From a bacterium (GTDB lineage: Bacteria; UBP14; UBA6098; 4484-93), in the NCBI GenBank assembly GCA_021158465.1, contig JAGGUN010000035.1, positions 1 through 64,000 on the forward strand: DNA of 64,000 bases. The letters are read 5' to 3'. The position numbers and the translations under genes are program-made. The notes below the pieces were generated by a model, which ran no database searches, was not told where the DNA came from, and was given only the letters and a program-made list of their open reading frames with translations. Below, in pieces: positions 58,902 through 61,477 of the stretch (positions are counted from its first letter, which is position 1; the number at the start of each line of letters is the position of its first letter).

Positions 58902-59456
58902 CTATTTTTTGCTCCTGGGGATAAGGGTAAATTGGAAGCTTTCTCCCTCGAGTTTGATGAAGGTTGGATTATCCTCTGACCCACCGAATTTTGAGCGTTT
59001 TTCGACGGTAGCAAGCTCCTTTGTTTCATCCAGTATCCTCTCGATAATTGCCTCACCGAGTTCCAGGTGTGTTTTTTGCCTTCCGCGGAAGAACATTGTT
59101 ATCTTTACATGGTTTCCCTTTTCGAGGAACTTTTTCACCTGCTTTATCTTGTAGCCGAAGTCGTGTTCGGATATCTTTGGGGAGAAGCGCATTTCTTTCA
59201 CATGGATGGTGTGTTGTTTTTTTCTTGCGAGCTTCGCCTTACGGGAGAGCTCGTACATATACTTACCGTAGTCCATTATCTTACACACTGGTGGTCTGGC
59301 TGTTGGGGCTACCTCGACGAGATCAAGGTTGGCGTTCCTTGCTATTCTCAGTGCTTCATCCGTGGGGAGTATTCCCAATTGTTTGCCATCTTCCCCTATG
59401 AGTCTGACCTCTTTGACTTGGATCATCTGGTTAACTCGAACCTTTCTTTGTTTGAT
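58902..59456 (-). CDS. infC: Translation initiation factor IF-3, non-AUG start
   Basis: IF-3 prevents subunit joining and checks the start codon on the 30S subunit. The ATG at 59426 lies inside conserved sequence: the frame upstream reads KQRKVRVNQ before MIQVKEVRLIGEDG, matching the normal 'RxNxxIRxxEVRLIGxxG' opening of IF-3. No ATG, GTG or TTG lies upstream in frame. AAGGAGGGG at 59462-59470 is best placed for ATC at 59456-59454 (or ATA at 59459-59457). With ATC the protein has 184 residues. Later motifs NLDLVEVAPTARPPVCKIMD and KMFFRGRQ-type ITMFFRGRQKTHLELG are standard. E. coli infC uses AUU and is autoregulated through it, so the same logic probably applies here. Confidence 0.9.
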   Translation of the reverse strand: MKQRKVRVNQMIQVKEVRLIGEDGKQLGILPTDEALRIARNANLDLVEVAPTARPPVCKIMDYGKYMYELSRKAKLARKKQHTIHVKEMRFSPKISEHDFGYKIKQVKKFLEKGNHVKITMFFRGRQKTHLELGEAIIERILDETKELATVEKRSKFGGSEDNPTFIKLEGESFQFTLIPRSKK

Positions 59457-59458
59457 TA

Positions 59459-61360
59459 TTACCCCTCCTTGTTTGAGATTTTCTCTTTCAGAAGCAGGAT
59501 GAACTCGTCCTGGGTCATAGTTCCGAGTTCGCCCTGTTTATGTTTTCTGACCGATACGGTGCCGTCCTTTTCTTCTCTCTCGCCAACTATAACGATGTAT
59601 GGTCTTTTCTTCAGTTCCGCGTCTCGAATCTTACGCCCAAGCTTTTCGTCCCTTTTATCCAGATAGGGTCTTATGTTGTTTTCTTCGAGTTTCTTTGCGA
59701 CCGATGATGCGTAGTCGAGGAACTGCTGGGACACTGGCAATATTGCTACTTGGATGGGAGCGAGCCAGAGAGGGAACTCGCCGGCGTACTGTTCGATGAG
59801 TATTCCGAAGAACCGTTCGAGTGAGCCTAAGATTGCCCTATGGATTACTATTGGACGACGGAGTGTGCCGTCTTTGGTGCTGTATTCCAGACCAAACTTT
59901 TCTGGTAGGTTGAAGTCAACTTGGACGGTTGTGCATTGCCATACCCTGCCGATGGTATCCCGTACCTTTATGTCTATCTTTGGACCGTAGAATACGCCTT
60001 CGCCCGGGTCAACCTTGAACGGGATGTTCCGTTCTTTCAGTGCCTCGGTTAGGGATGATGTTGCCTTCTTCCACATCTGTTCTGTCCCTGCAAACTTCTC
60101 TGGACGTGTAGATAGGAATATGTCAAACTGCTTGAAGCCGAATGCAGCGAATATCTCGAATGTCAGGTCAAGCACCCCTATTATCTCATCTTTCAGGTTA
60201 TCCTCTGTGCAGAATATATGAGCATCATCTTGAGTAAAGCCTCTGACACGTAGGAGTCCGTGCAGGACCCCTGAGCGTTCGTAGCGGTATACTGTTCCGA
60301 GTTCGGCGAGTCTCATTGGCAGGTCGCGATATGACCGCTTCTCTGAGCGAAAGTATGCCATATGGAAAGGGCAGTTCATCGGCTTGAGCTGATACTTCTG
60401 TCCCTCGACATCTATCGGCTGGAACATATTATCCGAGTAGAACTCTGTATGTCCGCTTGTTTCCCAGAGGCTTAGCCTTGCTATGTGTGGTGTATAAATA
60501 TATTGATATCCCCGCTTCCGGTGAATGCTCTTCCAGTAGTCCTCTATTATCTCGCGGACAACCGCACCCTCGGGTTTCCATATAACGAGCCCGGGACCGA
60601 TGGAGTCATCCATCATAAAGAGGTTGAGCTTGGCGCCGAGTATTCTATGGTCTCGCTTCTTTGCTTCTTCGAGTCTATGAAGATACTCTTTTAGCTCTTT
60701 TTTCTTCGGGAATGAGATGCCGTATATCCGCTGGAGCATCTTGTTTCTCTCGTCCCCTCGCCAGTAGGCGCCTGCGACGGATGTCAGCTTGAGGAATTTC
60801 ACCCACCCTGTCGATGGTAGATGTGGTCCGCGGCAGAGGTCGACAAAATCCCCGTTACGGTATACGGAGACATTTTTCTCCTCTATATCAGAGAGAAGCT
60901 CGAGCTTATATTCTTCACCGAGTGACCGGAAGATATTCTCCGCTTCTTCTTTTGAGATCTCCTCGCGAACAAACGGGATATCCTCCTTGATTATCTTTGC
61001 CATCTCTTCTTCAATCCGTGCAATCTCCTCCTCTGTGAAAGGAGATTCTATATCGAAGTCGTAGTAGAACCCCTCCTCGATGGGGGGACCTATGGCGAGC
61101 TTAGCCTCTGGGAATAGCCTTTTCACCGCCTGAGCAAGGATATGTGATGTCGAGTGCCAGAAGACAGCCTTCCCCTCAGGGGAATCAAATGTTATAAACT
61201 CCAGGGTGGCGTCGGAGAATATAGCTTTCGTGAGGTCAGAGAGCTCTCCGTTTATCCGACATGCAACAGGGGTCAGTTTCCTTTCTTTTGCAATCTCGAG
61301 AGGGGTTATGCCTTCTGGATACTCGGAGACCGAACCATCAGAGAACGTGATATGAATAAT
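59459..61360 (-). CDS. thrS: Threonyl-tRNA synthetase, apparent AUU start
   Basis: The first conventional start (GTG 61126) would remove conserved sequence. Upstream, the frame continues through HSTSHILAQAVKRLFPEAKL, the editing-domain hallmark, and an intact TGS domain (IHITFSDGSVSEYPEGITPL). The only start that fits is ATT at 61360-61358, 6 nt after AAGGAGG (61367-61373); no in-frame ATG, GTG or TTG was found between that site and 61126. The protein then has 633 residues, normal for ThrRS. The class II core has the zinc Cys330 (MNCPFHMAYF) and the C-terminal anticodon domain. The stop overlaps the infC ribosome binding site. The gene follows tRNA-Val by about 40 bases. Confidence 0.92.
   Translation of the reverse strand: MIHITFSDGSVSEYPEGITPLEIAKERKLTPVACRINGELSDLTKAIFSDATLEFITFDSPEGKAVFWHSTSHILAQAVKRLFPEAKLAIGPPIEEGFYYDFDIESPFTEEEIARIEEEMAKIIKEDIPFVREEISKEEAENIFRSLGEEYKLELLSDIEEKNVSVYRNGDFVDLCRGPHLPSTGWVKFLKLTSVAGAYWRGDERNKMLQRIYGISFPKKKELKEYLHRLEEAKKRDHRILGAKLNLFMMDDSIGPGLVIWKPEGAVVREIIEDYWKSIHRKRGYQYIYTPHIARLSLWETSGHTEFYSDNMFQPIDVEGQKYQLKPMNCPFHMAYFRSEKRSYRDLPMRLAELGTVYRYERSGVLHGLLRVRGFTQDDAHIFCTEDNLKDEIIGVLDLTFEIFAAFGFKQFDIFLSTRPEKFAGTEQMWKKATSSLTEALKERNIPFKVDPGEGVFYGPKIDIKVRDTIGRVWQCTTVQVDFNLPEKFGLEYSTKDGTLRRPIVIHRAILGSLERFFGILIEQYAGEFPLWLAPIQVAILPVSQQFLDYASSVAKKLEENNIRPYLDKRDEKLGRKIRDAELKKRPYIVIVGEREEKDGTVSVRKHKQGELGTMTQDEFILLLKEKISNKEG
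59462..59470 (-). promoter_or_regulatory. Ribosome binding site that sets the infC non-AUG start
   Basis: AAGGAGGGG on the minus strand sits in the last codons of thrS. From its GGAGG core, 7 nt lead to ATC (59456) and 4 nt to ATA (59459); ATG 59426 is about 35 nt away and cannot be served by it. Confidence 0.8.
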
Positions 61361-61366
61361 GCACTT

Positions 61367-61373
61367 CCTCCTT
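61367..61373 (-). promoter_or_regulatory. Ribosome binding site that sets the thrS AUU start
   Basis: AAGGAGG on the minus strand is followed after 6 nt by ATT at 61360 and after 9 nt by a second ATT. Family alignment (Met-Ile-His-Ile-Thr) favours the first. Confidence 0.75.
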
Positions 61374-61400
61374 TGGATAAGGGGCAGAGATAAAATATAA

Positions 61401-61477
61401 TGGTGGGCGATACTGGACTCGAACCAGTGACCTCTTGCATGTCAAGCAAGCACTCTAACCACCTGAGCTAATCGCCC
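61401..61477 (-). tRNA. tRNA-Val (anticodon GAC)
   Basis: This 77-nt cloverleaf includes an encoded CCA. The acceptor stem GGGCGAT pairs with ATCGCCC, the D arm has AGCTCAGG and GGTTAGAGT, the anticodon arm CTTGC-TTGACAT-GCAAG gives anticodon GAC, and the T arm ACTGG-TTCGAGT-CCAGT is canonical. It reads GUC codons best. It lies between its promoter and thrS, so it is probably cut from the thrS-infC transcript. Confidence 0.96.

Follow-up and report, generated by a model that had tools for sequence, protein, structure and literature searches.

A non-AUG start on infC, and apparently also on neighbouring thrS, in a bacterium of a small candidate phylum

The window analyzed here is a 64,000-nucleotide stretch (contig JAGGUN010000035.1, assembly GCA_021158465.1) of a 2.04 Mb metagenome-assembled genome from a small phylum, represented by 17 species in our sample. 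Its minus strand carries, in order, tRNA-Val, thrS, infC, rpmI, rplT, pheS and pheT, and the order from thrS to pheT is identical in E. coli. Threonyl-tRNA synthetase (ThrRS) is encoded by thrS at 59459..61360 when read from an ATT start (TIGR00418, 736.5 bits), and IF3 by infC at 58902..59456 when read from an ATC start (184 aa), with its identity assigned by matches to Pfam IF3_N and IF3_C and to NCBIfam TIGR00168 (207.8 bits). The tRNA-Val(GAC) gene (61401..61477, minus strand; ARAGORN and Rfam) ends 40 nt before thrS begins, in this genome as in the second species of the genus, and may be part of a common transcript with thrS. This tRNA was the only Rfam match, and no Rfam leader or riboswitch was detected at thrS or infC within the window. 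The second species is represented by G001, the only other genus member compared, which is an independent assembly (contig L031, the same as L051, 'candidate division Zixibacteria bacterium 4484_93') with an IF3 that is 82% identical to that of the window. Because no 16S rRNA was found by pattern search or Rfam in the G000, G001, G002 and G005 assemblies, the anti-Shine-Dalgarno sequence was deduced from the Shine-Dalgarno (SD) sequences of the genes.

In what follows, ATG, GTG and TTG are the canonical starts and AUH stands for AUU, AUC or AUA. Across the junction of thrS and infC the minus strand reads AAGGAGG (59470-59464)-GGTA-ATA (59459)-ATC (59456)-AAACAAAGAAAGGTTCGAGTTAACCAG-ATG (59426). 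The AAGGAGG that serves as the SD of infC (59464..59470) is located within the final thrS codons and is identical in G001, and the thrS stop TAA (59459..59461) stands between it and the infC start. Two AUH codons are available after this SD, namely ATA (59457..59459), 4 nt downstream and sharing one base with the thrS stop, and ATC (59454..59456), 7 nt downstream; the coding sequence from ATA is one codon longer than that from ATC, and the two IF3 proteins differ by one residue. The first canonical codon of the frame is ATG (59424..59426), with no ATG, GTG or TTG upstream of it. These coordinates, both spacings and the missing standard start had been put forward in the original prediction, and all proved correct when the minus strand was read again.

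The thrS frame likewise has no canonical start where relatives have one, which is the more unusual feature of the locus and was missed in the original prediction. This frame is open from within the tRNA-Val gene, and its first canonical codon is GTG 61126 (61124..61126). The 78 codons before this GTG encode IIHITFSDGSVSEYPEGITPLEIAK...HSTSHILAQA and align with the ATG-started ThrRS of relatives, and at the place of the relatives' ATG the window has ATT 61360 (61358..61360), 6 nt after the strong SD AAAGGAGG (61367..61374); a second in-frame ATT follows at 61357, 9 nt after the same SD. In G001 the region reads AAGGAGG-GAGT-ATA-TCT-ATT, with no canonical codon until a GTG at codon 77. The two start regions differ by an indel, the window having ATT at 6 and 9 nt from the SD and G001 having ATA at 4 nt and ATT at 10 nt. 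Of the N-terminal 75 codons, 47 are identical between window and G001, 19 differ synonymously and 9 non-synonymously; from this pattern the codons before GTG 61126 can be taken as protein-coding and, judged by these substitutions, as being under purifying selection. Overall, thrS also appears to start at a weak non-AUG codon, with AUU 61360 favored. The pattern was the same in the two species: canonical starts were absent, SDs were present and the upstream coding sequence was conserved.

Other candidate starts for thrS were rejected by comparison with G001. An out-of-frame GTG at 61364 combined with a frameshift is absent in G001, and ACG 61348 is AGT there. The out-of-frame GTG lies between the thrS SD and the ATT and opens an 8-codon frame (61364-61338, minus strand) ending in TGA, which is probably a chance occurrence given its absence in G001.

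Under a conventional reading, infC would start at ATG 59426 and the nine upstream codons would not be translated as IF3. This ATG is the choice of a standard gene caller and occurs in both species of the genus, but it lacks a usable SD, the only match before it being an AAGG that ends 14 nt upstream. Such a start would also remove conserved IF3 residues, whose presence upstream of the ATG had been recognized in the original prediction and was confirmed here, as an Arg-Val-Asn in this segment aligns with solved IF3 structures and model scores fall when it is omitted, from 111 bits (ATA start) to 106.2 bits for IF3_N (a loss of 4.8) and from 207.8 bits (ATC start) to 199.5 bits for TIGR00168 (a loss of 8.3). 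The original prediction had taken an ATG at this place in relatives, together with unconserved upstream codons, as the mark of a start at 59426; G001 does have the ATG, but its nine upstream codons are conserved as well (7 of 9 residues identical), and a Met at this place is an ordinary IF3 residue in bacteria whose own start lies further upstream. Initiation of infC at ATG 59426 is consequently very improbable, and the alternative already proposed, a non-AUG start at AUC or AUA, is well supported by the SD, the alignment and the G001 site with its change from ATC to ATT. A start of thrS at GTG 61126, yielding a shortened synthetase without the N-terminal domain, is likewise very improbable. 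It would make use of the first canonical codon of the frame, and some sampled ThrRS do have a short N-terminus; however, this GTG lacks an SD, lies 78 codons inside conserved ThrRS and costs 13.7 bits relative to the TIGR00418 score of full-length thrS, and the upstream codons both evolve as protein and can be aligned with ATG-started relatives from residue 1 or 2 onward. Gene callers limited to ATG, GTG and TTG would shorten IF3 in the window genome by about 10 residues, and ThrRS would be truncated by 78.

For infC, the choice between the two AUH codons was approached through relatives and SD spacing. In G001, 14 bases (AAGGAGGGGTAATA) are unchanged relative to the window, and ATC is replaced by ATT. 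In family f2, which forms one clade with family f1 in the ThrRS tree (support 98/92), infC reads GGAGG-TTAG-ATC-ATC in G002 and GGAGG-TTAA-ACT-ATC in G005. The codon at 7 nt is ATC, ATT, ATC and ATC across the four f1 and f2 genomes, and ATC 59456 is favored because this is the only position with an AUH codon in all four. Spacing favors ATA 59459 instead, because, of 50 strong SDs counted in this genome, 13 stand at 4 nt, the modal distance, and 5 at 7 nt; an earlier argument for ATC from spacing alone was dropped when a wider count gave this 4-nt mode. A start at ATA, which is kept in G001, would give the overlap UAAUA with the thrS stop, the non-AUG counterpart of the common UAAUG. Against it, G005 has ACT at this position and AUC solely at 7 nt, and conservation of the ATA has another possible cause in the tandem TAATAA stop of the thrS frame. 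Following this comparison across genomes, we consider ATC 59456 the likelier start, while ATA 59459 is a somewhat improbable but serious candidate.

The rarity of such starts was assessed in 210 gene-like frames sampled from 362 kb, or ~18% of the window genome. Only thrS and infC combined a strong SD and an AUH codon with conserved sequence that would be lost at the first canonical codon. Widespread use of non-AUG starts in this genome was rejected. Besides these two, three frames were flagged in the 362 kb and dismissed as AUH-start genes: L145 encodes no recognizable protein, in L146 a signal-like peptide is preceded by an ATG, and L142 has better canonical starts with SDs. Among 47 distinct thrS with the region in view (a small set, with loci taken as returned), 45 have a canonical start codon and the two exceptions are those of the window genus; with two genomes, the genus provides one independent comparison.

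To place infC in a wider context, 118 distinct infC loci from relatives of many phyla and named GTDB genomes were collected, and the 117 that could be scored were searched for a canonical codon in the interval from the upstream stop to the conserved Asn. Such a codon was absent in 37 of the 117, from many phyla, versus 0 of 108 rplT put through the same test at the same loci as a control (Fisher p ~1e-12, with related genomes not being independent). One of the 37, L043 (G013:C229), is probably a broken reading frame, its IF3 match extending over two frames, probably through a frameshift in the draft assembly. In the remaining 36, the best-placed codon was ATC (15), ATA (13), ATT (7) or CTG (1). 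This sample, in which AUC, AUA and AUU are all in use on infC and none on rplT, gives a simple count of how far weak starts have spread, and the window brings a little-known candidate phylum under a known rule. Tandem AUH codons were seen at 7 of the 37 non-canonical starts in a simple count (e.g., L001, L002, L015, L018, L019 and L080). An AUH start on infC, or autocontrol through it, is not universal or obligatory in the phylum, as infC starts at GTG in family f3 and at ATG in family f4. In members of these families (L033, L040 and L042 in f3; L034, L037 and L039 in f4), the only strong GGAGG is often found 13-14 nt upstream of the canonical infC start, an unusually long spacing that is perhaps another way of weakening initiation.

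A weak infC start is in itself an already known trait, to which the window adds one member. Starts at AUU have been reported for E. coli and B. subtilis (PMC1805508), at AUC for Streptomyces (PMC5472188) and at AUA for S. aureus, where the codon was mapped by ribosome profiling (Ribo-Ret; PMC13009471). The original prediction had offered conservation of the trait rather than of the exact codon as a new insight, which these published AUU, AUC and AUA starts anticipate. In E. coli K-12, infC is arranged as GGAGG, thrS TAA, 3 nt and ATT, and the window resembles it: the SD lies within the last part of thrS, the thrS stop separates this SD from an AUH codon and a canonical start is lacking, with AUC or AUA in place of AUU. 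Feedback has been demonstrated for E. coli, with IF3 autocontrol acting through the AUU start (Butler 1986/1987 and Sacerdot 1996, both cited through PMC5472188), whereas for the window it is suggested by analogy. The favored window codon is identical to the ATC of Streptomyces, which belongs to an unrelated phylum and for which the accessible part of PMC5472188 makes no mention of an effect on thrS. The AUA of S. aureus, also served by a strong SD (PMC13009471), corresponds to the alternative window start; it was mapped experimentally, in contrast to the window start, which is predicted from sequence.

Non-AUG genes beyond infC include pcnB of E. coli, which starts at AUU, and ccpN/cvfC1 of S. 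aureus (both PMC13009471), as well as sigR of Streptomyces, which starts at GTC and has been shown to be repressed by IF3 (PMC5472188). Like these, the window thrS is a second gene that pairs a strong SD with a weak but conserved start, but none of them is an aminoacyl-tRNA synthetase or belongs to the infC operon. E. coli thrS starts at AUG, unlike the window thrS with its putative AUH start. No report of a bacterial thrS with a non-AUG start was found among open-licence papers, and an earlier report is possible. To our knowledge, this would be the first bacterial aminoacyl-tRNA synthetase under IF3 start-codon control, should the present reading be true.

IF3 rejects initiation outside AUG, GUG and UUG, and infC is thereby self-limiting in homologues (PMC5472188 and references cited there). 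In the proposed scheme, infC would initiate at a weak AUH codon positioned by the strong SD in the end of thrS, across the thrS stop, and IF3 would destabilize 30S complexes on starts other than AUG, GUG or UUG and so limit its own synthesis, as in E. coli. A shortage of free IF3 would then allow more initiation at the AUH codon and bring IF3 back up. The succession of SD within thrS, stop and start would additionally couple infC to thrS translation. Autocontrol of infC by IF3 is a reasonable inference from this analogy. The same weak-start device may operate on thrS in the genus (AUU 61360 here; AUA or AUU in G001), in which case IF3 would hold back both leading genes of the cluster, thrS and infC, and a shortage of IF3 would raise threonyl-tRNA synthetase together with IF3. 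We infer from sequence the use of these exact AUH codons, the repression by IF3 and the thrS-infC coupling, and we hold the combination of AUH starts on both genes (AUC likelier than AUA for infC), limitation of both by IF3 and coupling of infC to thrS to be quite probable. For the further proposal that in this genus the thrS-infC pair is under common translational regulation by IF3, both genes having kept or gained IF3-sensitive AUH starts, the chances appear even. If the thrS start is real, IF3 start-codon control reaches the tRNA synthetase beside infC, and the case raises the question of whether lineages recruit neighbors into the IF3 feedback loop.

Conversely, the AUH starts could be neutral relics or annotation quirks, tolerated where the SD is strong enough and involving no IF3 feedback. 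The case for IF3 control in this lineage is drawn from sequence, and the f3 and f4 relatives manage without an AUH codon on infC. However, in a reconstruction of ancestral AUG starts only 1 of 61,358 had turned into AUU (PMC5622118), a change so rare that its sharing by the neighbors thrS and infC is notable, and both genes have AUH starts in both species. Weak infC starts also persist across many phyla, and we regard neutrality as unlikely compared with IF3 control of the two genes.

The thrS leader is short, with 40 nt only between the tRNA-Val gene and ATT 61360, and the 83 nt around the thrS start fold no better than shuffled sequences (z -0.42). The E. coli thrS operator, a long structured leader to which ThrRS itself binds, is larger than a leader of this length readily holds. 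Both the 40-nt leader and the unremarkable folding of the start region suggest that there is little room for an E. coli-like operator, and it may be speculated that the AUU start is the thrS control that remains.
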